Assembly: GCA_030523245.1 (NCBI GenBank)
Contig: JAUNIW010000008.1
Location: 1-36,078, forward strand
Length of the DNA stretch: 36,078 nucleotides
DNA from: Pseudomonadota bacterium
GTDB taxonomy: Bacteria > Pseudomonadota > Alphaproteobacteria > RF32 > CAG-239
Reading direction: 5' to 3'
Every line of letters starts with the position of its first letter. The first letter of the stretch is position 1. Both the position numbers and the translations under genes were made by a program. Of this stretch, positions 259 through 28,106 are shown piece after piece. The notes under the pieces were generated by a model. It was not told where the DNA came from and searched no databases. It saw only the letters and a program-made list of their open reading frames with translations.

Positions 259-1071
259 TTAACGTTCCTTGCTGAATATAGCTATTTTTAGGTATTTAGG
301 TAAAGAATATTGCATTTTTGATAAAGGCTCCATTTTATCGAGAATCTTGCCAGTTCTATCGTCTGTTGACCAATATGCACACCCAATCATTTTATCTACT
401 CTCTTATGTTTATTGACGATTTCTTTAACACAATCCTTAAATTGCATATTGAATTCATGGTTATCAGTGTTTCTCAAATTCTTCATAATTTTCATTAAAT
501 TTTTTAAAGGCTCATTTTCTTCATACTTATCTGTAAACTTATTTACAGCCTTCATTAGATTAAACATTCCGTTAACATTTTCTTTTAGCTTTTCCGGATT
601 TTGATAAATTTTTGTTTGTAAATCCTCAAAGGAGGTAAAACTACGTATGTTTTCAGGCATATTGTGTCTAGCTTCCAGATTAGCTTCTATGGCCATTAAA
701 TCTGAGCGAGATAACTTTGTTTTATTGACAAGTGCTTTCAATTCATCGGCTTCTATAAGCGCAAACTTAGAAGCAGCCAATTTTTCAGCATTACTAAAAG
801 GAAAATCAACACTATATGTTTTTTCGCTAATTTGAAAATCATATTTGTGCTTGGAAATTACGAAATTTTCACTTGAACCATCAACAATTATTGAACCATC
901 TTGTGTCCACAAAATTTTAATTGTTTTGTCATCCACTTTTGCATTTACGACATTGTCTTTTTTCGTATAATTTCCTAACACGTCACCATACATACCCATA
1001 CCATACTCAGGCTCATAAGTTCTTTCTTCGTTATAATTTCCTTTCTCTTTAGGATAAAATTCTATTTTCAC
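259..1071 (-). CDS. Uncharacterised protein, probably the distal part of an interrupted gene
   Basis: I do not recognise this protein. The open frame from a GTG at 1071 gives 270 residues, rich in Lys, Glu and Asn. The first third looks beta-rich and the remainder (from about residue 100) is mainly helical, with no signal peptide or membrane segment. The GTG is probably not the true start: the same frame stays open and protein-like upstream to a TAA at 1150-1152, and beyond that stop it continues to about 1197. A second frame then takes over up to the end of the P-loop gene at 1242. No Shine-Dalgarno sequence precedes the GTG. It lies downstream of, and in the same direction as, the P-loop and DHH-like genes, so it was probably the third gene of that operon. 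It may be a pseudogene. Confidence 0.5.
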   Translation of the reverse strand: MKIEFYPKEKGNYNEERTYEPEYGMGMYGDVLGNYTKKDNVVNAKVDDKTIKILWTQDGSIIVDGSSENFVISKHKYDFQISEKTYSVDFPFSNAEKLAASKFALIEADELKALVNKTKLSRSDLMAIEANLEARHNMPENIRSFTSFEDLQTKIYQNPEKLKENVNGMFNLMKAVNKFTDKYEENEPLKNLMKIMKNLRNTDNHEFNMQFKDCVKEIVNKHKRVDKMIGCAYWSTDDRTGKILDKMEPLSKMQYSLPKYLKIAIFSKER

Positions 1072-1241: not shown

Positions 1242-2324
1242 TCATTCAATTTCTTTTTGACTCTTTACCACTGCGTTAAGTATTTTATGATTGGGCATTT
1301 GTCTCTTAGCGGCTTTTGTCTGAATATCTGCTGTTGTCTTTCCGTTCGGCCCACTCATTTTGCCTAATTTTAGATTTTTCATACCGACCTTAATTTTCAG
1401 CGTTTCCATTTTTTCCTGTAAATAATCTCGTTGTTCAGTTGTTTTATCAAATGAAACCCCGATAATTTCGACATTCGGTTGACCGAATATACGTTTAGTA
1501 ACATCATCACGCTTAAAACCTGAACGATTACCAAGCACGATAACATCAGCTTTAATTACTTCCGGTAATTCATCAACGGAATCTGTCTCGAATACCGTCA
1601 AGCCTTGTAAATGGCTGGCCAAGGTAGATTTTCCGGTTCCTGACGCTCCCTCAATAATCCAAACCGGACGATTTTCCATAGCCCGCGCCAACGGGGTAAA
1701 TAGTTCTTTGTTAACAGACACTCCTCCCTTTGGATAATAAATATCAATACCGTAATTAGAATAGGTAAACACATTATTTTCTATCACCTTTTCTCTTTCA
1801 TCAACGGCATCACTACAGTAAGCATCAGTAATAGCATCACCTACTGTATCACGAGCAATATTACCATCTTCATCCTGTTTATAAATGGTTTGTTGCTCCC
1901 ATGACAAGTTATCGGGATTAATTGAAAATCCGGTAATAATCGTTGGTTCTGTCGGAATATGTGAGAGAGGAATGTCTTTTTCAAGTTTTTCTATTTTCAT
2001 GTGACCAAATGATGCCGTGCTATATCTCGAATAGCTGGTTCCATAAGAATTACTTAAACTAAGTAGATATTTATTTTTGTTCTTTAAGTCTTTTACTATC
2101 AATTTATAACGTTCATCGTTAATATCGCCAGCTTCTGTATCGTCCGAATAACCGCTTGTGGTCAGATATTTTTCTACAGCCAAACCTAAAACCTGAATAC
2201 GTCCTCGTTTTAACCAATCTGCTGTATTTTTCTCGGCTATCTCCTCTACAAATTGTTTTTCCCCTAATCTACCTTGTTCTTTATCTAATTCATCATTAAA
2301 TTCATTAAGTTTCAATTTTGGCAT
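1242..2324 (-). CDS. P-loop NTPase / polynucleotide-kinase-like protein with unknown N-terminal domain
   Basis: This 360-residue protein has a clear Walker A motif, GASGTGKST at residues 226-234, preceded by the hydrophobic strand VWIIE. A second strand (ADVIVLGNRSG, near residue 260) could carry the Walker B or substrate-site role. The small C-terminal domain, about 130 residues after the P-loop, is the size of a nucleotide/polynucleotide-kinase-like or zeta-toxin-like fold rather than a full AAA+ module. Residues 1-215 form a separate acidic domain that I do not recognise. The start is supported by GGAG eight or so bases upstream of ATG. It lies 128 bases downstream of the DHH-like gene on the same strand. 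What it phosphorylates or hydrolyses cannot be told from the sequence. The P-loop is certain; the kinase reading is inference. Confidence 0.65.
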   Translation of the reverse strand: MPKLKLNEFNDELDKEQGRLGEKQFVEEIAEKNTADWLKRGRIQVLGLAVEKYLTTSGYSDDTEAGDINDERYKLIVKDLKNKNKYLLSLSNSYGTSYSRYSTASFGHMKIEKLEKDIPLSHIPTEPTIITGFSINPDNLSWEQQTIYKQDEDGNIARDTVGDAITDAYCSDAVDEREKVIENNVFTYSNYGIDIYYPKGGVSVNKELFTPLARAMENRPVWIIEGASGTGKSTLASHLQGLTVFETDSVDELPEVIKADVIVLGNRSGFKRDDVTKRIFGQPNVEIIGVSFDKTTEQRDYLQEKMETLKIKVGMKNLKLGKMSGPNGKTTADIQTKAAKRQMPNHKILNAVVKSQKEIE

Positions 2325-2452
2325 AATTTTTCTCCTTTGTTATAGTTTCACAGTCATTGTTGCATGCTGAAAAACATAAGATTTATTGTATTTCGTTTGG
2401 AAAACCTACAGATATCAACCTTGCTGATTATTCATCACCTCTTATCATTATA

Positions 2453-3451
2453 TTATTCTCCAAGGCCTTTACCGCTGCCAGCAATACCGGTATTAGATGT
2501 AACTTTTGCCTTATACTCAGGCGCTAAATGAGCAAATACCGTCTTTTTAATGTCGGACAAACTGATATTACAGTTTTCGCCTTGTTTTGAACCTTTAAAG
2601 GTTGGACTGCCACCCCAACCGGATTCTATTTGATTGAACCGATCTGCAACAGCATTCAAATCAGCATAACCGACTTCGTGTTGACAAATACTAACTTTCC
2701 GGAAAGGTTCGCCTTGAGGACCCAATTTCATAGCCGGATTCACAGCAACAACCACCGGCGCCATGGAATATCCGACATTGGTTGCACAGGATAATGTTGT
2801 TTCTACATAAGCAACTCCTCCGACAACTTCAGTTTTGATTTCACCTGATTTCACTCTTTCAATAATACCGTTTTGAACAATACGATAATTATTCATTGTT
2901 GTTTCATCAACATTTCCGGTATCAATAAACTGCTCAACATCTTCAATATTCTTGGGTGTTACCATAAATACCCTAATCGAAGAAGCTAGAGCCGCTGTTT
3001 TATTATCTGGATCAAAAGCCTGTTCTATAGGTTTGGGACCATTCCACTTAGCGCCTTGAAATGCATCATGTTCATTAATTTTTGCAACATTTTCATTATA
3101 TTCAACTGATTGACCTTGCAAAAATCTATCTGCCAGAACAAATGAAGCTATCGAATCTACATCCACACGATTGGTAACAAAAACAACATCTTGTCCTTTA
3201 TATTCTGCAAGCAGATTTTCGGCATTTTGAGCAACTGTTTTAGCGCAACATTCCGCCGCATTTCCATATGTATGTTGAGGATCAATATTTTTATCACATA
3301 ATGCGGCCAATTCCGGGACAGTCATTTCTAAACCCACAATTTTCTTACCTGCACCAGTCATGGTTTGTAATTTTTTCACCTCTGTTTCACGAACATTTTC
3401 ACCGGTTTTCGGGTTTTTCATTGCAGGGTTAATATACATAAATTCAGACAT
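2453..3451 (-). CDS. Divergent DHH-superfamily phosphoesterase-like protein
   Basis: The protein has 332 residues and no signal peptide. The segment DVVFVTNRVDVDSIASFVLAD (residues 88-108) has the shape of a DHH motif I: a hydrophobic strand, then Asp-x-Asp-Ser and a small-residue helix. NIDPQH at 55-60 precedes it. Near the C-terminus GWGGSPTFKGSKQG (278-291) resembles the glycine-rich GGH...G loop of a DHHA1 substrate domain, with Ser in the His position. DHH proteins cleave phosphodiester or phosphoanhydride bonds in nanoRNA, cyclic dinucleotides or polyphosphate. The canonical DHH triplet itself is not seen, so this is a remote relative and its activity is unproven. AAGGAGG lies seven bases upstream of ATG, and a good promoter precedes it. 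It heads the operon with the P-loop gene. Confidence 0.5.
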   Translation of the reverse strand: MSEFMYINPAMKNPKTGENVRETEVKKLQTMTGAGKKIVGLEMTVPELAALCDKNIDPQHTYGNAAECCAKTVAQNAENLLAEYKGQDVVFVTNRVDVDSIASFVLADRFLQGQSVEYNENVAKINEHDAFQGAKWNGPKPIEQAFDPDNKTAALASSIRVFMVTPKNIEDVEQFIDTGNVDETTMNNYRIVQNGIIERVKSGEIKTEVVGGVAYVETTLSCATNVGYSMAPVVVAVNPAMKLGPQGEPFRKVSICQHEVGYADLNAVADRFNQIESGWGGSPTFKGSKQGENCNISLSDIKKTVFAHLAPEYKAKVTSNTGIAGSGKGLGE

Positions 3452-3487
3452 ATCGGCCTCCTTTAGATAAATTTAATTTATAAGTAA

Positions 3488-3516
3488 TTTATGTCATAAA
3501 CCAACGTTTTTGTCAA
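3488..3516 (-). promoter_or_regulatory. Sigma-70 promoter of the DHH-like / P-loop operon
   Basis: On the minus strand a perfect TTGACA (3516-3511) is followed after 17 bases by CATAAA (3493-3488). The AAGGAGG and ATG of the DHH-like gene follow about 25-37 bases further on. The -35 box is exact; the -10 box matches four of six positions. Confidence 0.5.
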
Positions 3517-3619
3517 CATTTTTATGATTTTATTTTTTGTAAAAAACCAAGTAAAAATAATAAGCTAATTTCTTTTAATTTGGAACACATTTACTTCTTT
3601 GCATTCGGTCAAAAACGTT
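3503..3619. repeat. Inverted 10-mer pair between divergent genes (operator or recombination half-sites)
   Basis: AACGTTTTTG at 3503-3512 recurs exactly inverted as CAAAAACGTT at 3610-3619, in the region between the minus-strand DHH-like operon and the plus-strand serine recombinase. The left copy lies against the -35 box and spacer of the minus promoter. The right copy lies about 45 bases upstream of the recombinase start, where its promoter should be. Serine recombinases often bind such sites next to their own gene, so these could be operators or res-type half-sites. AT-rich context makes chance possible. Confidence 0.35.
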
Positions 3620-3665
3620 CTAATAAATTGACCTGTATTTTTTAAGAAAATTTAAGGAGAAAACT

Positions 3666-4262
3666 ATGGATGTTATTGGTTATATTCGGGTGAGTTCCGC
3701 CAAGCAAACACTTGAACACCAACGCTTTGAGATTGAACAATATGCCAAAAAACATAAATTGAAAGTTGATAATTGGGTCGAAGAAAAAATATCTTCCCGA
3801 AAAGCCCTGAGAAACCGCAAACTTGGCACTTTATTAGATAATTTGCAGGAAAATGATATACTTATCTCTTGCGAAATCTCCCGATTAGGCAGATCTTTGC
3901 TTGAAGTTATGCGGATTTTGGAAACCTGCCTTAATAAAAATTGCCAAGTCTGGACTCTGAAAGAAAATTACCGATTAGGAAATGATATACAATCAAAAGT
4001 TCTGGCATTCGCCTTTGGCTTAGCTGCTGAAATTGAGAGAAATCTTATCTCCCAACGTACAAAATCATCTCTTGCCAATCTCAAAGCATCAGGCAAAAAA
4101 CTCGGCCGGCCGTTCTCCGCAGAATCAAAAAAGCTGAAACTCACTAAAAATGCTAAAAAAATAAGAAATCTGCTCGCCAAAGGCATTTCCCAAACACAAA
4201 TAGCCCAAATTCTCGGCGTCCAACGCAGCACATTAAGACGTTTTATTGAGAGAATGACTTAA
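3666..4262 (+). CDS. Serine recombinase (resolvase/invertase family)
   Basis: This 198-residue protein matches the small serine recombinases in length and order. The N-terminal catalytic domain starts YIRVSSAKQ with the nucleophile Ser10 and Arg8, followed by the ISRLGRS signature at 71-77 and a long E-helix (about 105-130). The C-terminus (about 160-196) is a helix-turn-helix of the Hin type, with GISQTQIAQILGV as the turn. Such enzymes cut and rejoin DNA at paired short sites through a phosphoserine bond, resolving transposon cointegrates or inverting segments. AAGGAG lies about six bases before ATG. It is divergent from the DHH-like/P-loop operon and no transposase is next to it, so it may be a stand-alone invertase/resolvase or the remnant of a mobile element. 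No recombination site can be fixed beyond the inverted 10-mers upstream. Confidence 0.9.
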   Translation: MDVIGYIRVSSAKQTLEHQRFEIEQYAKKHKLKVDNWVEEKISSRKALRNRKLGTLLDNLQENDILISCEISRLGRSLLEVMRILETCLNKNCQVWTLKENYRLGNDIQSKVLAFAFGLAAEIERNLISQRTKSSLANLKASGKKLGRPFSAESKKLKLTKNAKKIRNLLAKGISQTQIAQILGVQRSTLRRFIERMT

Positions 4263-4300: not shown

Positions 4301-4532
4301 CGACTAACCACTCCAAGACATTCAAACGCTTACCTCTTTGCGAGCGCATTTTATCAACAATTACTCCTCGTCCTATTTACTCTTCCGATAATCTCAGCCG
4401 CAGAAAACCTTACAATATAATTATCCAACGTGTGCAACTAATACAAACCTCTTTTCAGGCAAATAATAAATTTGACAAAAAACTCTTTACATCATCTCTG
4501 TATTATGATATTTAAAATCAGGAGTGAATCGT

Positions 4533-5723
4533 ATGGTCAATAACAAGCAATTTATAGAATTTCAGGAAAAAATCGGGGACTTGAAACATCTGAAAAGAAC
4601 CGGTTGGGTTGTCAGAGGAGTACCTGCGGCAGAAACAGTTGCCTCTCATTCCTGGCGAATGGCTTTAATGGCAATGCAAAAAGAAAATGAACTGGCATCT
4701 ATGGGGGTTAATGTTTCAAAAGTAGTTGAAATGTGTCTGGTTCATGATGTTGCCGAAGCTGTTATCGGAGATATTATTCCGGAAAATTTTCAAGCTTCCG
4801 ATAAAAAAATTTCAAGAGAAGAAAAAATAAAATCAGAGAAAAAAGCAATCAACGATTTATCTGAAAAGTACAATTTTCCCAAATTAAAATCTTTGTTTAA
4901 TGAATATGAAAAAGGTCAGACAACAGAGGCAAAAGTCGTTAAAGACTTAGACAAAACAGATATGATTTTGCAAGCTTATGAATATATGCAAGAATATCCA
5001 GAACTGACAAGATTAGATGAATTTATGGCATATAATGAAAAAGATGTAACTTTGCCTGTCTTTGCTTCGGCGTTAAAAGAAATAAAATCAAGACAAGAAA
5101 AAGGTGAAACAAAAGAAGATAAATTTATTGATTTTCAGATTTTAGCGGGAAAATTAAAGCATCTGGAGCGCAGCGGACCGAAAATGTACAATATTGCAAA
5201 TTGCGAAACTGTTGCTTCTCATTGTTTTAGGACGGCCATTATGGCATTGCATTTAGAAGAAGATTTAAAAGAACAAGGTCTAAATGTTCAGTCAATTATC
5301 AGAACGGCAATTGTTCATGACATAGGGGAAGCCGTTATTGGAGATATTGTACCGGAAAAATGGCAAAAAGGCGCAAAAATATCTAAAGAAGGGAAGCATA
5401 AAAAAGAAGTTGAAGCTATTGTCGGTATGTCCCGAAAATTTGCCGTACCTTTTATATGGAAAGCTTTTGATACAATGGAACGCAGAGCAACCCCCGAAGC
5501 GTCTATGACCAAAGATTTAGAAATTTTTGAAAGCATTCAACAAGCCTACGAATATATAAAAATATACCCTGAAAAAGCTATTTTGCGAGAATATGTACCC
5601 TATCACCAGCCAAGAATAAAATCTGATTTAGTACAGGGGCTCATTGACGGCATTAAAATAAAACAGGACAGATTTCTTACATCGAAAAATTTTCCGACCT
5701 TTTATAAAGAGGGCGGAAGATAA
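4533..5723 (+). CDS. Tandem HD-domain protein, YfbR/HDDC2-like 5'-deoxynucleotidase duplicated in one chain
   Basis: This 396-residue protein contains two complete HD domains. Repeat 1 has ETVASHSWR (His39), LVHDVAEAVIGD (His71-Asp72, Glu75, Asp80) and KDLDK (Asp138). Repeat 2 has ETVASHCFR (His230), IVHDIGEAVIGD (His262-Asp263, Glu266, Asp271) and TKDLE (Asp328). The AEAxxGD pattern is that of YfbR and HDDC2, which remove the 5'-phosphate of deoxynucleoside monophosphates; they are normally single-domain proteins of about 200 residues and act as dimers. Both metal sites look intact, so this may be a covalent pseudo-dimer. ATG at 4533 is preferred because AGGAG lies eight bases before it; the GTG at 4524 overlaps that AGGAG. 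TTGACA at 4472-4477 has no well-spaced -10 box. A strong terminator follows. Confidence 0.8.
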   Translation: MVNNKQFIEFQEKIGDLKHLKRTGWVVRGVPAAETVASHSWRMALMAMQKENELASMGVNVSKVVEMCLVHDVAEAVIGDIIPENFQASDKKISREEKIKSEKKAINDLSEKYNFPKLKSLFNEYEKGQTTEAKVVKDLDKTDMILQAYEYMQEYPELTRLDEFMAYNEKDVTLPVFASALKEIKSRQEKGETKEDKFIDFQILAGKLKHLERSGPKMYNIANCETVASHCFRTAIMALHLEEDLKEQGLNVQSIIRTAIVHDIGEAVIGDIVPEKWQKGAKISKEGKHKKEVEAIVGMSRKFAVPFIWKAFDTMERRATPEASMTKDLEIFESIQQAYEYIKIYPEKAILREYVPYHQPRIKSDLVQGLIDGIKIKQDRFLTSKNFPTFYKEGGR

Positions 5724-5806
5724 ATTTATAAAAGCTTTTTATTTTGCTAAATATATCAGTCATGATGATTATATATCCGGATTAAACAGATTTAATTCTA
5801 TAAATT

Positions 5807-5862
5807 AAACTGTTGGATGAGGGGATAATGTTTATGAAAACCTCAATCAACAGTTTTTTATT
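5807..5862 (+). terminator. Rho-independent terminator of the tandem-HD gene
   Basis: AAACTGTTG (5807-5815) pairs with CAACAGTTT (5848-5856). An inner GAGG/CCTC helix follows after a small mismatch, and the 3' arm runs into TTTTTTATTTT. It lies about 85 bases after the stop codon. Confidence 0.75.
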
Positions 5863-5980
5863 TTAGGTGGATTTGACTTTATTACAAATTATATTTATTG
5901 GGATATTTTATATCCGGTTCTGATTTTTTCTACTTATTGGAATTAAAAAAGCAGAACAAAAATTTAACTATTTAAATCGT

Positions 5981-6363: not shown

Positions 6364-6987
6364 TTATTTTACCATTGCAATATCTACGGTAAAATCTTTG
6401 CCAAATTCCCGTTGCCATTTTTGTCTTTGCTCTTCCGGAATATTTTTTGATTTATCAGAAATCTTAAATGTATTAACAGATATTGACCCGTCTGGCCGGA
6501 CAGTATTTTCAGCTTTAATAAAATCAATGTGACCAATGTAAACGACTTCTCCAGGTTTAACCGTAAATCTGATTTTTTTGTCTCCTTCATAATGCTCATC
6601 AGTTACAATATGTGTTGTTGTCGTTTGCATACTGCCATAAACTTCGGTTGTTTGGTAAACATATTGAAGATATAAATTGATAACTTCATAAGTTCCGATA
6701 GAAAGCATTGCCGTATCATAAGCTTTTTCGCCAAGTAAAGTACTTAAAGAATATACTTCGCCGGACTGTACATTTCTAAAAGCGACAAGATTTGTATAGT
6801 TCGTGCTGAAAAAGCCGTCATCAGAGACATTGTCTGACATAGAAATAATAACTTCACCTCTGGCCCCAGAAGTAAATAATTCAGGACGAAATTGCTTGGT
6901 GGCAATAATCAAGCCATCAGGAGTCGGGGTTTGAGGAAAAGCACAGCCAACTAAGAGAAAAAGCAATAACAGGATACCTTTTTTCAT
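6364..6987 (-). CDS. Predicted lipoprotein of unknown function
   Basis: The protein has 207 residues from ATG at 6987, which is chosen because AAGGAG stands six bases upstream and because it yields a clean lipoprotein signal, MKKGILLLLFLLVGC, with lipidated Cys15. A longer frame begins at 7041 but only adds a non-signal leader. The mature part is beta-rich, with a central run of Tyr and Thr (YLQYVYQTTEVYGSMQTTTTH) and a later PGEVVYIGHIDF strand. That last segment is often seen in small lipoproteins that regulate surface chemistry, but I do not recognise the family. The BamE-like lipoprotein gene follows 11 bases downstream. A terminator for the gene upstream of it (7050-7069) separates this pair from the third lipoprotein. 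Confidence 0.65.
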   Translation of the reverse strand: MKKGILLLLFLLVGCAFPQTPTPDGLIIATKQFRPELFTSGARGEVIISMSDNVSDDGFFSTNYTNLVAFRNVQSGEVYSLSTLLGEKAYDTAMLSIGTYEVINLYLQYVYQTTEVYGSMQTTTTHIVTDEHYEGDKKIRFTVKPGEVVYIGHIDFIKAENTVRPDGSISVNTFKISDKSKNIPEEQRQKWQREFGKDFTVDIAMVK

Positions 6988-7042
6988 ATCAATCTCCTTT
7001 ATGTTAGCTATGAGTTTATGTCCTAAATTCATAAAAATCAAT

Positions 7043-7069
7043 AAAAAAACCGAGGCTGGTAAACCTCGG
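7043..7069 (-). terminator. Rho-independent terminator of the 7114-7539 gene
   Basis: CCGAGG (7050-7055) and CCTCGG (7064-7069) form a six-pair GC-rich stem with an eight-base loop. Read on the minus strand it is followed by seven Ts (7049-7043). It falls between the minus-strand genes at 7114-7539 and 6364-6987. Confidence 0.75.
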
Positions 7070-7113
7070 AAAATTTTTAATTTACTTTTTTTTAGATTGT
7101 CTGTTCGTCTGAA

Positions 7114-21492: not shown

Positions 21493-21521
21493 CTCTGTTT
21501 CACATGAAACAGAGTTTTTTT
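21493..21521 (+). terminator. Rho-independent terminator after hsp20
   Basis: CTCTGTTTC (21493-21501) pairs perfectly with GAAACAGAG (21506-21514) around ACAT and is followed by seven Ts. Confidence 0.85.
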
Positions 21522-21605
21522 ATTTTTATACGGCTTTTCCTTAATCAAAATTTAAGTTCTTTAGCTTATCCTGAAAGAAAAATTTTATCTTTGATGAGGG
21601 TTAAT

Positions 21606-24600
21606 ATGTTTAAAAATAAGATTTTGCTCAAAACAGCCGGCTGGCTTTCTCTGGCATCTTTTTGTGCAGCTGCCGTTCCTTTTTCGGCTCAGGCTTATCG
21701 TCTTACACCCTTGTCTTTCAGCAAAATGTACGGTTTGGCTCAAAACGGCGAAGTAGAGGCCTTACGTGCTTCTGTCCGCCGCGGTATGAATATAGATACC
21801 GTCAACCAAAACGGCGATACGGGTTTGTGCATTGCCGCTCAGAGAAAAGATGCCTATACCTACAATGTTTTTCGGGCTGCCGGTGCAAATCCGCGGCATC
21901 CGTGTGTGCAAAGAATAGAACATTACGATGATTTTGTAAACTCATCAAAAGCTGTTTCCGTAACGGCAACCCCGCGCGAAGCTTATGGAACAATCGGTAA
22001 AGAAGAATATAAGATATCTGCGGCAACATGGTGGATTTTAGGCGGTTTGGCCGTGGGCGGCGGTATTGCAGCCATTGCGCTGGGCGGCGGTGGCGGTGGC
22101 GGCAGCAGCCATAATAATAACAATAATAACAATGAGAGTGACAGTTATGATTATATCGGTAAATATCTTTCCGAAAACAACAGTGTTGCTAAACTGGCTC
22201 AGGCTGTTAATCTTATCAATAATGACGGTTTACTTACAATTTTAAATACTGATACCAAAAAAATTGCCGAAATTATTTTTAATAAAGATGTGCAGGAAAC
22301 CGGAAAATATCTGGCTACCGGCCTGAAAGCAACCGACAACGGCTCATACACAAATGCCACTAATTCAAAGATACAGGTCGGTGCCGGAGGAACGGCAATG
22401 GCTGCCGTCGGTCAGGGCAATGTGATGAACAACGGCTATATCAACGTTGATTCTTTTAACGCTTCCGTCGGTATGATTGCCAGTAATCATTCAACGGCTA
22501 ACAATAACGGTACCGGCGTGGTGGAAAATTCTTCGACAAACGGAATTGACCTTAATTTTTCCGGCTATTCCAATGATAATATGATTATCGGTATGTATGC
22601 CGACAGCAATTCAACCATTTATAACAACGGCGATATTCAGGGAACCGCCATTAAAGCAAGTACGGCACCGACCGATAACACCGAAAATAATAACAACAGC
22701 GGTAACAATGATTCATTTCTTGACGATATTCTGCCTTCTGCCGAGGGTGTAGCCGACGGAAATTCGTCATCCTCGACTTCCGTTTCCGGAACGCTTATCG
22801 GTATGGAAACAATGATTCTGAATACCGGTGCTGTCGCCGTTAATGAAAAATCACAAGCTTACAACTACGGAAAAATAAAGCTGAGTGCCGGTGATGCCGG
22901 ACTGAGTAATTCGGAAATCAAAGTCAGTATTATCGGAATGGGCAGTTATCTGGACGACGGATTTATGAACAGTTCCAAAAATATTCAGCGGGCCGACAAA
23001 GCTTATCTCAGCAATAAAGGAACAATTCAGCTGAGCTATACGGGAAATTATACGTTTGATACCACCAAAACCCTGCGAAAAGGTTTGGGCGGTATTATCG
23101 GTATGCGGGCCGATGCCAATACCACGGCTGAAAATGACGGAACTATAGACATTATCTTACCGGACAGCAATCCTTCTTCGTCTTCATCCTCTTCTTCCGT
23201 AAATCCGGCCGCTAATGCCGATGTAGCCGTCGCTGCGGGCATGCAGTCCGTCCATACGGGTATCATTAAAAACAATAAAGACGGTAAAATTTTGCTTGAA
23301 TCAAATGCTTATAACTCCCGCGTGTCTTACGGCATGCTGGCTGTTGAAGGTTCCGGAACCGTTTCCGGTCTTTATACGGCCATAAAACCGAATATTGTCA
23401 ATGACGGTACCATTCAGCTCAGAATAAGCAACGGTTATGGTATAGCGTCATACAACGGCGGAACCATTACAAACAATGGTACAATTACTTTAGGCGACAA
23501 AAATTCAACAACTTATAAAAATAATATCGGCTTATACGGTTCGGGAGACAGCACGTTTACCACTTTGGTCAACAACGGCGAAATCAACATATATTCCTAT
23601 GAATCCAAGGCCATACAAAATGATTTCAGCGGTGATGTTACCATACAAAACGATGGTATTATCCATATTTATTCCAATGCCGTGGATTCTGATGTTTTTG
23701 CTGGAAATTACAGCAAAATCGTTAATAACGGCACGGTTATTTACGAAACAACTTCAAATAATGCCGGCAGTGTTGACAATACCGGCAGCAGCGGAAACAG
23801 CGGTAACAGCGGCGAAACGTCAGAAACTTACAATCCGGATAATTTCAATCTGGATATAACCCGTAATATTATAACAACAAAATCGGCAAATTCTTCTTCC
23901 AGCACAACCGAACGGATAGAAAATTACGGAACAGTCAAACTGGTAACGGCCAAAGCGGCGGCCATGTCCGTAGAAACGGCACAGGGAACAGCCTTTAACG
24001 GCGGAACGATAACTCTGGCTTCCAATAAAGAACTGGGTGCCGGCTATACAGGCAATAACTATGTCAATGCCGGTATGCTTTTGGGAGAAGACACGCTTAT
24101 TACATCGAGTATCATAAATGCCGGAACCATAAATGTAGAATCGGATTATTCCGTAGGTATGGCCAGCCAATCCAAAAATCCGGCCAGTGTTACCAATGAA
24201 GAAACCGGTGTTATCAATGTTAAAGGAAAGAATTCTTTCGGTTTATATGCCAAAGGCAACAGCCAGCTTTACAATAAAGGCATAATCAACCTTTATGGCG
24301 AAAATAACGTTGGTTTATACTCCAGTGCGGAAAATTCCGAACAAAACGGTACGGTTATTCAAAACAATATCATTAAAATTTACGGCAAAAACGCCATTGC
24401 TTACCAAATCAGCGGTAATGCCTCGATTGATAATCCGGGGCAGATTATCGTATGTTCCAGCGATGAGGAGGGATGTAATCCTGATGCGGCCAAAACAATG
24501 ACGGCTTATTCTGTCAGCGGTAAACTGGTTTTGAATACCCAGCAAAATATCAGCGGCGGAACGATGGTCAAAACAACTTCCGAAGACAGTGATGTCATGA

Positions 24601-27600
24601 TTGGTTCTTCGGGTCGGTTAACGCTTTATGACAGCGGCACGCTTATTGATGCTTCTGCCGGCGGAACCATAACAAACAATGGCGACCTTATTGTAAGCGC
24701 AACCGGCGGAACAGCTATTTTGGGCGGAGAAGACAACACAATTACCAATAATAAAAACATCAACTTATACGCAGGGTCAGAAAATACCGGTATTACCGTA
24801 AAAGGCGGCACAACCACAAATGCCGGCACGATTGATATTACGGAATCTTCTACAAAAAGCACCGGTATAGATGTTTCCGGCGGTGAGGTGGAAAACTCGG
24901 GAACCATCAATGTTTATTCTACAGAAAGTACCGGTATAAAAATCTCTGACGGAGAAGTGGAAAACAAAGGAACCATCAATATTTCCGGTGGATACAATAT
25001 AGGCGTTGATGTATCCGGCGGTTCTTTTACCAACAGCAAAGATATTGATATACGCGAAACTACAGCTGCTACCCAAGGTATTTATGTTCATAATGGAGCA
25101 ACAGCTGAAAATAAAGGAAATATTTATATACAAACTATAACATCATCTCATCAAACAAGAGCTGTTCTTCTTGATAATGGAACTTTTAAAAATTCTGGAA
25201 CTATATCTGGAGGATTAATTTATATTTATAATACTGAATCCGGTCATTCTGAGTTTATCAATTCCAGTAAGATAAATGATGTCGAAATCTATATTAACAA
25301 TGGCGGAATTTTTACTAATGAAGAAAATGGAACTATTTCTATAAATCATTATTCTGAAGGAATTTATGTCACAGGTATTAATTCTAAAATAACCAATTCT
25401 GGTACAATAGAATTATTATCTGCAAATGTATCTGCTGTTTCAGTTAAAGAGGGTGCAACTTTTACAAATAATGAAAAAGTTATTGTTGATGGAACAACCT
25501 CTTCCGGTATTTACATCACTGATGTTAATTCTACAGCAACCAATTCCGGTAACATATCGGTTGAAGGGAATGACTCTATCGGTGTTTCTGTCAAAAATGC
25601 TGCGACTTTCACAAACGATGGTGATATTTATATCAATGGTTCAAGAACTAAAGGAATTAGTCTTTCTGACAGTAATTCTTCGACAACCAGCTCCGGTACG
25701 ATAACGGTTGACGGAGATAATTCTTACGGTGTTTATTTTTCAGACGCTAAATCCTTTAAAAACGATGGTACAATTACTGTTAACGGGAATAATTCAAATG
25801 GTATTTATGCCTCCGGTTCTTCTTCCGAAGTAACTTCCAATACCTTAACCGTTAACGGAGATAAATCTACCGGTGTTTCTATATCCGGCGGTGTAATTTT
25901 TACAAACAGCGGAGATATTACGGTTAAAGGCGATGAGCCAAAGGGTATTTATTCATTAAATTCTTCTATAACCAATTCCGGCAAAATAACGGTTGAAAGC
26001 AACGGATATAGTGCAGATGCTATAGGTATTGACCTTCAAAACGGAACTTTAAAAAATGAAGGGACAATAACGGTTAAAGATTTGGGAGCAAAGGGACTTT
26101 CTGTTAAAGGACCTAATGTCGAGGCAACTAATTCCGGCACAATAGCTGTTGAAGGAGACAGTTCTTTCGGTATTTATTCTGACTCAGGTTCTTCTACAAT
26201 AACCAGTTCCGGTACAATAACGGTTAACGGAAATAAATCTACAGGCGTTTCTATCAGCAACGGCTCTTTCACAAATACAGAAGGAACCATTACTGTAAAA
26301 GGTAATAATACAACAGGAATTTCCATCTCGGGTGCTTCCACCGTGGTATCTAATTCCGGTGCCATAACGGTAGACGGGGTTGGTGCTATCGGTGTTAATA
26401 TCAGTGCCGGAAAATTTGTAAACACCGAAAACGGTTCTATCACCGTTACCGGTGATGAAGGCAAAGGTATAAATATTTCCGGTGGCGATGTGAGAAACAG
26501 CGGTTCAATATCTGTTTCAGGAATTAAAAATTCTAAGGGTGTTTATATCAGTGGCGGAAAATTTACAAATCTGGGAACTATCTCTATCAAAGGTGATAAA
26601 AACTCTTATGGTATTGATAAAAACGGCGGCGAGGTTGATATCGGCAGCGAAGATGGCGGTAAAAACATAACAGCCGATGATCCTGCCCAAAAATGTAACG
26701 GTCTTTCTTGTCCTGATAAAAAAGAATCGGCTAAAGCGGCTGCTTTTAAAGTGGTCGGACCAAAATCTGCCTTTATAAACAATGGAACATTTACCGCTGA
26801 AACGGAACTTGATTTTGATGCCATAACCAATTCTTCCGGCACTATGGCTGTCGGCAAAAACGGCAGCTACAGCGCAGAGGGCTTTAAAGGTGTGGTTGCT
26901 GCCGATGCAAGTATTACCCAAAGCGGTTTTGAGACCGTTTATACCAATGAAAACTCTTTTGTCGGTAAAGACAACGGTTTGGATATTACTTCCGGCTCGT
27001 ATTTGTTTTCGGCGGATAAACAGCTTAATGATAACGGCAATATTGATGTGGTTATGACAATGAAATCTTTTGACGATACGATAGCCCGTAAAGAAATGGC
27101 TGCTTATCTGGCGCAAAATTATACCGCACAAAAAGGCGAGGGTGTTTTCAATATTTTGAAAAGCATGTCCGACGCGGACAGCCTTAATGCTGCCGTTAAT
27201 CGTGAATTTGGTTTCAGTATGCTGCCGAATCTGGCTAAACAGGACTTGGATGTACTGGCTAATGTCAATCGTGCGGCAAATAATGATATTTTAAGCAAAA
27301 CAGATAAAATCAGCCGTTCGCAGGTCAATGTCCTGTCTTATCAGCAGGAAATGGACAATAAACAACATGTTTCCGGCTATAAAGACAAAGTTACCGGCGT
27401 TTACGGGTTCAGTGATTACCAAATTGCTGCCGACTGGCGCGCCGGTTTTGGTGCAGCCGCCGTTCGTACGGACAGTGATTTTGATGACGGTTCGTCACGT
27501 TACAACAACATGCTGCAAATCTTTGCGCCTATATCTTATGTCCGTGACAATTTCCGCGCTATGATTAAGTTCAAAACAGGATTTGGTAAAGGGCACTATC

Positions 27601-28106
27601 GTCGTCAGGGAACAGAAAATGCCTATAAAGCCGATTTGACAAACTACTACTACGGCGCCGATATCGAAGCACGTCAAACCGTTGAAACAACAGCGGCCGA
27701 TGTGGAACCTGTTATCGGTTTCAATCTTACCGGCGTGTCTATGGATGATATTAAGGAAAATAATAACGGTTTACATGCCGGCAGCGACAATCTTGTATCG
27801 GCTCAATCCGTTATCGGACTTGATATCAAGAAAAAACTTGATTTGGCCAAAGACCAGTCTGTTGTTTTGACAGCCGGCGGCCGTTATTATCATGAATTTG
27901 GTAATAAATACAAAACATCGGCTTCTTTGGATAATATGGTCGGTTCTTATGAACTTGTCAGCAATCGTCTGCAGCGTAACAGCGGATTGTTGAACCTCAA
28001 AGCACAGTATGATTATAAAGATGTTTCCGTCAGTGCCGCGGTTTATAAGCCGGTCGAACAAAAAAGCAATATTTACTATCTCTTCAATCTGGGATATGTT
28101 TTCTAA
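21606..28106 (+). CDS. Giant autotransporter with ankyrin-like N-terminus and repetitive passenger
   Basis: This is a 2166-residue protein. ATG 21606 is chosen because GAGGG is five bases before it and it gives a classical Sec signal ending PFSAQA (about 25-30); the longer frame from 21504 crosses a terminator. Parts: ankyrin-like repeats (about 38-95); a hydrophobic segment WWILGGLAVGGGIAAIALG (142-160) followed by poly-Gly and poly-Asn; a passenger of about 1700 residues; and a C-terminal autotransporter barrel (about 1905-2166) ending in Phe (YLFNLGYVF). Residues about 1050-1680 are dozens of units of 20-25 residues of the form [FT]xNxGxIxVxGxxSxGIxxSGG, expected to stack as a beta-helix. 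It is a type V secreted surface protein, probably an adhesin. GC content drops sharply within the passenger. A terminator follows. Confidence 0.9.
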   Translation: MFKNKILLKTAGWLSLASFCAAAVPFSAQAYRLTPLSFSKMYGLAQNGEVEALRASVRRGMNIDTVNQNGDTGLCIAAQRKDAYTYNVFRAAGANPRHPCVQRIEHYDDFVNSSKAVSVTATPREAYGTIGKEEYKISAATWWILGGLAVGGGIAAIALGGGGGGGSSHNNNNNNNESDSYDYIGKYLSENNSVAKLAQAVNLINNDGLLTILNTDTKKIAEIIFNKDVQETGKYLATGLKATDNGSYTNATNSKIQVGAGGTAMAAVGQGNVMNNGYINVDSFNASVGMIASNHSTANNNGTGVVENSSTNGIDLNFSGYSNDNMIIGMYADSNSTIYNNGDIQGTAIKASTAPTDNTENNNNSGNNDSFLDDILPSAEGVADGNSSSSTSVSGTLIGMETMILNTGAVAVNEKSQAYNYGKIKLSAGDAGLSNSEIKVSIIGMGSYLDDGFMNSSKNIQRADKAYLSNKGTIQLSYTGNYTFDTTKTLRKGLGGIIGMRADANTTAENDGTIDIILPDSNPSSSSSSSSVNPAANADVAVAAGMQSVHTGIIKNNKDGKILLESNAYNSRVSYGMLAVEGSGTVSGLYTAIKPNIVNDGTIQLRISNGYGIASYNGGTITNNGTITLGDKNSTTYKNNIGLYGSGDSTFTTLVNNGEINIYSYESKAIQNDFSGDVTIQNDGIIHIYSNAVDSDVFAGNYSKIVNNGTVIYETTSNNAGSVDNTGSSGNSGNSGETSETYNPDNFNLDITRNIITTKSANSSSSTTERIENYGTVKLVTAKAAAMSVETAQGTAFNGGTITLASNKELGAGYTGNNYVNAGMLLGEDTLITSSIINAGTINVESDYSVGMASQSKNPASVTNEETGVINVKGKNSFGLYAKGNSQLYNKGIINLYGENNVGLYSSAENSEQNGTVIQNNIIKIYGKNAIAYQISGNASIDNPGQIIVCSSDEEGCNPDAAKTMTAYSVSGKLVLNTQQNISGGTMVKTTSEDSDVMIGSSGRLTLYDSGTLIDASAGGTITNNGDLIVSATGGTAILGGEDNTITNNKNINLYAGSENTGITVKGGTTTNAGTIDITESSTKSTGIDVSGGEVENSGTINVYSTESTGIKISDGEVENKGTINISGGYNIGVDVSGGSFTNSKDIDIRETTAATQGIYVHNGATAENKGNIYIQTITSSHQTRAVLLDNGTFKNSGTISGGLIYIYNTESGHSEFINSSKINDVEIYINNGGIFTNEENGTISINHYSEGIYVTGINSKITNSGTIELLSANVSAVSVKEGATFTNNEKVIVDGTTSSGIYITDVNSTATNSGNISVEGNDSIGVSVKNAATFTNDGDIYINGSRTKGISLSDSNSSTTSSGTITVDGDNSYGVYFSDAKSFKNDGTITVNGNNSNGIYASGSSSEVTSNTLTVNGDKSTGVSISGGVIFTNSGDITVKGDEPKGIYSLNSSITNSGKITVESNGYSADAIGIDLQNGTLKNEGTITVKDLGAKGLSVKGPNVEATNSGTIAVEGDSSFGIYSDSGSSTITSSGTITVNGNKSTGVSISNGSFTNTEGTITVKGNNTTGISISGASTVVSNSGAITVDGVGAIGVNISAGKFVNTENGSITVTGDEGKGINISGGDVRNSGSISVSGIKNSKGVYISGGKFTNLGTISIKGDKNSYGIDKNGGEVDIGSEDGGKNITADDPAQKCNGLSCPDKKESAKAAAFKVVGPKSAFINNGTFTAETELDFDAITNSSGTMAVGKNGSYSAEGFKGVVAADASITQSGFETVYTNENSFVGKDNGLDITSGSYLFSADKQLNDNGNIDVVMTMKSFDDTIARKEMAAYLAQNYTAQKGEGVFNILKSMSDADSLNAAVNREFGFSMLPNLAKQDLDVLANVNRAANNDILSKTDKISRSQVNVLSYQQEMDNKQHVSGYKDKVTGVYGFSDYQIAADWRAGFGAAAVRTDSDFDDGSSRYNNMLQIFAPISYVRDNFRAMIKFKTGFGKGHYRRQGTENAYKADLTNYYYGADIEARQTVETTAADVEPVIGFNLTGVSMDDIKENNNGLHAGSDNLVSAQSVIGLDIKKKLDLAKDQSVVLTAGGRYYHEFGNKYKTSASLDNMVGSYELVSNRLQRNSGLLNLKAQYDYKDVSVSAAVYKPVEQKSNIYYLFNLGYVF
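24720..26640 (+). repeat. Coding repeat array in the autotransporter passenger
   Basis: Units of about 60-75 bases encode GTITVxGxxSxGIxxSxGxxFxNxG. Recurring DNA words include ACAATAACGGTTAA and GGTGTTTCTATATCC-like segments. The array is in frame and lacks spacers, so it is not a CRISPR. It offers ground for recombination between units. Confidence 0.7.

Follow-up and report, generated by a model that had tools for sequence, protein, structure and literature searches.

A putative Mpi-type promoter inverton beside a DHH/DHHA1-fold protein gene in a small-genome alphaproteobacterium

Do two adjacent genes of unassigned function, one for a P-loop protein and one for a DHH-like protein, form an enzymatic module, or is the locus better understood through the serine recombinase gene that diverges from them? 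The genes lie near one end of contig JAUNIW010000008.1 (here C44), the whole of which, 36,078 nucleotides, is the window analysed; it belongs to assembly GCA_030523245.1 of a Pseudomonadota bacterium (Alphaproteobacteria; RF32; CAG-239), a genome of 1.45 Mb in 97 contigs. An initial annotation placed three open reading frames (ORFs) here, which are present at the coordinates it gave (Table 1), and treated the recombinase as a bystander; this gene is instead the part of the locus with interpretable biology. The locus is read here as a Mpi-type inverton with a new cargo, that is, a local promoter-inversion (phase-variation) switch in which the recombinase and a pair of inverted sites would control the DHH-like gene, a reading to which we assign a probability of about 0.64. 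Neither the P-loop gene nor the recombinase family is of a new kind; the points of interest are a DHH-fold family missed by sequence profiles and its probable control by a promoter inverton.

A Mpi-type recombinase and candidate inverted sites

The recombinase matches Pfam Resolvase over its full length (3.6e-33), has a C-terminal helix-turn-helix (HTH_7 and HTH_23 over the Pfam cut-off), and carries the catalytic-domain motifs RVSS and SRLGR of resolvases and invertases; the divergent serine recombinase of the initial annotation is therefore confirmed. Its score against NCBIfam NF009949 (“Mpi family”) is 274.9 bits, which exceeds the cut-off of 272 by a narrow margin. Relatives occur in 18 of 28 genomes with at most 10 matches per genome; judged by its sequence, the protein is a Mpi-type promoter invertase of a family that is multi-copy in the genus.

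The 300 bp 5' of 22 Mpi-like recombinase genes were read, and many relatives have two inverted sites located ~40-110 and ~140-260 bp 5' of the recombinase start codon; the cores of these sites are paralogue-specific and the arms match within each locus. At L111 (G009:C8) a 17-bp perfect inverted repeat, TAAATGAACGTTTATGT, lies between the recombinase and a divergent glf (UDP-galactopyranose mutase); L098 has inverted sites of 16 bp (AAAAAAGACCGGTTTT) and 15 bp (AAACCCACCGATTTT), other sites are AAAGGAACGAT (L076), AACGAACATT (L101), AAACCAACG (L110) and GAACGGTTT (L080), and arm matches of 9-11 bp are seen in several further family loci. Five loci (L111, L076, both L098 loci and L080) are better than all composition shuffles. 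Two contigs of the relative G015 start precisely at inner-site cores (CGTTCT... and GTTCC...), the former, C9, at a core homologous to the inner site of the window, and the far end of one such contig reads GTTCGGTTTT, an outer-like core; contig breaks at site cores are expected if both orientations coexist. The far-side genes include Glf (L111), a Type IIG-like restriction-modification operon and a putative autotransporter-like protein (L098), and lipoprotein-like genes (L110), all of kinds typical of phase variation. Invertons are placed near surface genes in one study (PMC11892184).

In the window, an exact 10-bp inverted pair, AACGTTTTTG and CAAAAACGTT, is found in the gap that separates the DHH-like gene from the recombinase, at the place usual for loci of the family. 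The pair is weak alone and gains credit from three comparisons. The outer site, CATAAACCAACGTTTTTG, shares an 18-bp identity with the site in the corresponding position of L110 (G005), whose recombinase is 60% identical; when all 21 loci were shuffled 300 times, this length was never reached (null maximum 14). The 10-mer AACGTTTTTG has 15 copies in the 1.45 Mb, 13 of them outside the window, and one of these lies 167 bp upstream of a second Mpi-like recombinase of the genome (C55), where an estimated ~0.005 copies would be expected by chance in 600 bp of such upstream DNA. Lastly, L079 (recombinase 85% identical) has the same layout, with cores CCAACATT/AATGTTCT for the CCAACGTT/AACGTTCT of the window, the change being matched in both arms. 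DNA similarity to the closest recombinase loci (L072, L073 and L079) starts at 3612-3616, in the inner arm. A role for AACGTTTTTG as a genome-wide master site was considered and rejected, as the 10-mer is not enriched (15 copies versus 20 for the reversed control).

The perfect -35 box reported in the initial annotation is present as TTGACA on the minus strand (3516-3511), followed by a 17-nt spacer and the -10 box CATAAA; the last two bases of TTGACA fall inside the outer arm. When 3503-3619 is flipped in silico the -35 position becomes CGGTCA and the promoter site is lost. In the proposed mechanism the recombinase would act on the two arms in the gap to the divergent DHH-like gene; as assembled, the segment would supply most of the -35 box and the gene would be ON, and inversion would exchange the -35 box for CGGTCA, turning the gene OFF. 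We infer both inversion at this locus and its transcriptional effect, as well as possible co-transcription of the downstream P-loop gene, which is phage-related and not an obligate partner.

Several observations weigh against a switch at this site. The 10-bp repeat of the window is by itself not significant, being equalled in 17.5% of composition shuffles and in 6 of 21 between-locus pairings, and no clear inverted pair was found in the upstream DNA of L096, L100, L103, L104 or L107. The -10 box is mediocre, and inversion would spare a second, weaker promoter-like site, ATGACA-16-TAAATT, which is located beyond the segment. The assembled orientation is the single one seen at the window locus, and the absence of motif I from the DHH-like protein (see below) makes a catalytic role of the cargo less certain. 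Homologues of the DHH-like gene elsewhere have no recombinase neighbour and no inverted repeats of at least 11 bp were found upstream of them; these homologues do not look switchable, and the switch would be particular to this genome. A rival explanation is a chance inverted repeat in an AT-rich gap, with a mobile or distant-acting invertase beside an ordinary, constitutive DHH-like gene. The non-significance of the 10-bp repeat and the missing recombinase neighbours of the homologues speak for it, as do the many contexts of this multi-copy recombinase family and the precedent of Mpi itself, whose 13 target regions are scattered (PMC4747536). This explanation is considered unlikely; against it stand the 18 bp shared with another family locus, the arms at distances usual in the family, the core change matched with L079 and the -35 box abutting an arm.

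The promoter-inversion reading places the window close to Mpi and other Bacteroides promoter invertases (invertons): the recombinase belongs to the same NCBIfam family, a short putative invertible promoter segment lies between inverted sites, and family members in relatives stand beside known phase-variable gene kinds (Glf, autotransporter-like and restriction-modification). The window recombinase differs in being alphaproteobacterial and in that its action appears to be local, confined to the segment upstream of its own gene and to paralogue-specific cores, whereas Mpi is one master enzyme; the cargo is a DHH-fold protein and not a surface gene, and inversion in the window is putative.

Further features were seen at the related loci. 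At L111 a TTGACA is located at the recombinase-side arm and is directed toward the recombinase. At L098 4042-13339 (G007:C5:68000-86000), a candidate phase-variable defence island, the Mpi-like recombinase with the 15-bp sites is flanked on one side by the divergent Type IIG-like restriction-modification operon and on the other, downstream, by a HamA/HamB (Hachiman) pair; at L098 13647-17999 the autotransporter-like gene, which encodes at least 1158 aa, diverges from another Mpi-like recombinase that has the 16-bp inverted repeat upstream.

Fold, active site and distribution of the DHH-like protein

The DHH-like protein has no relevant match in Pfam, NCBIfam, PADLOC or PDB sequences, and none to Pfam DHH/DHHA1 even at E<=1; PF01368 detects one gene only in this genome, a RecJ on another contig, and a sequence profile comparison of the DHH-like protein with RecJ detected no similarity. 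The remote DHH/DHHA1 relationship claimed initially is borne out by structure and not by sequence, DHH proteins coming top in the structure prediction that had been proposed as its check. An AlphaFold model from a four-sequence alignment reached pLDDT 82 and pTM 0.77, the five models ranging from pLDDT 82 to 54. All seven Foldseek PDB matches at E<=0.001 are DHH-superfamily proteins, including GdpP, PAP phosphatase, RecJ2 and NrN; VIA-align ranks PAP phosphatase first (Z 10.8; 233 residues, rmsd 4.5), followed by the DHH protein PF0399, RecJ2 (Z 9.9), Cdc45 (Z 9.8) and PggH (Z 9.4), and a viral structure library agrees, with phage NrnB and phosphohydrolases matching the model. A predicted DHH/DHHA1 fold, missed by sequence profiles, is supported by these models.

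The active site departs from that of known members. In D. radiodurans RecJ, motif I comprises D79/D81/D83, motif II D135, motif III H159/H160 and motif IV D223 (PMC4846377). Structural alignments place the start of the model past motif I of the target proteins (RecJ, 5f56_A, is aligned from residue 101), no motif I was found behind the first strand of the domain at the N-terminus, and the open frame, at 339 aa, leaves hardly any room for further coding sequence upstream. The Asp-His-His triad of motif III is absent in every aligned member, the corresponding stretch containing D57-P-Q-H60. Judged by spacing, the counterparts of motifs II, III and IV would lie close to E42, D57-P-Q-H60 and T93-N-R-x-D97-x-D99, respectively; the D97-x-D99 stretch, VVFVTNRVDVDSIASFVLADRF, resembles the strand-loop-helix of motif I, which may have been displaced (circular permutation) or lost. 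A RecJ motif-profile scan gave 89-115 as the best motif I window (equalled in 1% of shuffles), a result not repeated in homologues and therefore uninformative. E42, D57, H60, D97 and D99 are invariant in 4/4 members of alignment A2 (down to 47% identity), and H128/D129 in 7/7 members of alignment A4; these invariant acidic and histidine residues argue for a working metal site.

The protein resembles DHH/DHHA1 phosphoesterases (NrnA, PAP phosphatase, GdpP, PggH and RecJ) in its predicted two-domain fold and in spaced acidic and histidine residues where motifs II-IV would fall. It differs in that sequence similarity to them is undetectable, the N-terminal motif I is missing, DPQH takes the place of the DHH triad, and WGGSPTF that of the usual GGGH-type loop of DHHA1. 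Cdc45 likewise has a DHH fold with altered active-site motifs, but the present protein is bacterial, stand-alone, 332 aa in length and has no replicative helicase link. The cargo is restricted to its lineage and is probably a metal-dependent phosphoesterase, remodelled in its active site, that acts on a small phosphorylated nucleotide; we infer both catalysis and substrate. A catalytically dead DHH-fold binder of nucleotides or oligonucleotides, controlled by the switch in place of an enzyme, is compatible with the switch reading and is given somewhat less than even odds: alignments that begin past motif I of the targets (RecJ residue 101, with motif I at 79-83; PMC4846377), the missing DHH triad and the high rank of Cdc45, which kept the RecJ fold, are as expected of such a protein, while the invariance of the seven residues and the motif I-like setting of D97-x-D99 look like a working metal site. 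The most specific version, a lineage-specific family with a circularly permuted motif I and remodelled site placed under a promoter inverton as a phase-variable nucleotide-processing enzyme, is considered quite doubtful.

The profile of the DHH-like family matches 8 of 153 genomes of the order (this one and seven others), and in a class sample of 385 genomes it matches only the window's own protein and G030; the named relatives carrying the gene are alphaproteobacterial metagenome bins. Spread by phages or plasmids was considered and rejected, since no homologue was found in the phage records, plasmids and viral contigs. Neighbours vary at the homologous loci and include an aminotransferase/radical-SAM cluster, glycogen genes, an MFS permease, ankyrin-repeat genes and large hypothetical proteins. 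Downstream of the DHH-like gene, L011 has a complete aminotransferase gene (4593-5942, 449 aa), which in L010 is reduced to 96 aa (6807-7097); the truncation suggests rearrangement beside the DHH-like gene.

The P-loop protein and the proposed partnership

The P-loop domain called in the initial annotation is upheld by the Walker A motif GASGTGKST, by weak Pfam P-loop matches, and by a core matching PHROG 10007 (phrog_10007, E 3.7e-36). Among phages, Bacillus phage Troll, Acinetobacter phage BS46, Vibrio phages R16F and P018-4 and Pseudoalteromonas phage HM1 carry relatives, and four viral contigs do so too; the PHROG 10007 phage proteins (Troll gp255, BS46 gp127) share the N-terminal domain and minimal P-loop at 30-45% identity, the chromosomal copy differing in its longer N-terminus, inserts and C-terminal extension. 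The AlphaFold model is poor (pLDDT 57), with a P-loop part resembling small kinases (best Z 7.4). Three other genomes of the order have homologues (G002, G059 and G173). That of G002 (L006 9202-10332, G002:C3) has AKSAKDAEH in place of GASGTGKST and probably does not bind ATP; the G173 match (L037 5279-7456, G173:C11) is a 725-aa protein that holds the N-terminal domain inside a larger architecture.

The P-loop and DHH-like genes had been proposed to pair a phosphate-transferring with a phosphate-cleaving enzyme in a module for nucleotide signalling, repair or defence. The genes are adjacent on the same strand, 128 bp apart, with no terminator predicted in this gap; the P-loop gene may be co-transcribed with the DHH-like gene, and G059 is the one other genome with both. 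In G059, however, they lie on different contigs (C2 and C10), no P-loop gene stands beside the DHH-like gene at any homologous locus read, no DHH-like gene stands beside the P-loop gene in G002, G059 or G173, and most genomes with the DHH-like gene have no P-loop gene. The neighbourhood check thus gave no linkage at any locus read, the outcome that the initial annotation had named as a refutation; a paired system is rejected on gene neighbourhoods, and the functional pair loses its support; with no relevant PADLOC match and no recurrent linkage, the defence module is not supported either. The loss of Walker A from the G002 homologue also speaks against a partnership, which is now regarded as very improbable.

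Other features of the window

The initial annotation also counted a third protein within 1242-4262; none is present there besides the recombinase. The only candidate is an orphan ORF outside this interval, possibly the last gene of the P-loop/DHH-like transcript, which gave no family match at a useful score in Pfam, NCBIfam and PHROG scans and no match among 27 other genomes searched. Adjoining the recombinase, 4524-5723 (+) encodes a 399-aa protein with tandem HD_3 domains (YfbR-like 5'-nucleotidase halves; Pfam), its matches in relatives spanning one domain only; at 21504-28106 (+) lies an ORF of 2200 aa with no Pfam match.

Table 1. Coordinates of genes, candidate sites and the putative invertible segment in the window
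Feature	Position	Strand	Description
Orphan ORF	259..1071	-	270 aa, GTG start
P-loop protein	1242..2324	-	360 aa; N-terminal domain and minimal kinase-like P-loop, also present in large phages; phrog_10007 3.7e-36
DHH/DHHA1-fold protein (predicted)	2453..3451	-	332 aa; no N-terminal motif I, no DHH triad; AlphaFold and Foldseek/VIA
Promoter-like site toward DHH-like gene	3488..3516	-	TTGACA-17-CATAAA, 10/12 as assembled; -35 straddles outer-arm edge
Outer recombination-site candidate CATAAACCAACGTTTTTG	3495..3512		includes left arm AACGTTTTTG (3503-3512)
Putative invertible segment	3513..3609		97 bp between arms; from inverted arms and family pattern
Inner recombination-site candidate GGTCAAAAACGTTCTAATAAATTGACC	3607..3633		includes right arm CAAAAACGTT (3610-3619)
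Mpi-type serine recombinase (promoter invertase)	3666..4262	+	198 aa; Pfam Resolvase, NCBIfam NF009949

The DHH-like protein adds a DHH-fold family that is invisible to sequence profiles and whose active site departs from textbook motifs. If the promoter-inversion reading is true, Mpi-type promoter inversion would extend to a group of alphaproteobacteria with small genomes and several self-linked switches apiece, and these switches would reach restriction-modification and surface genes besides the DHH-fold cargo.

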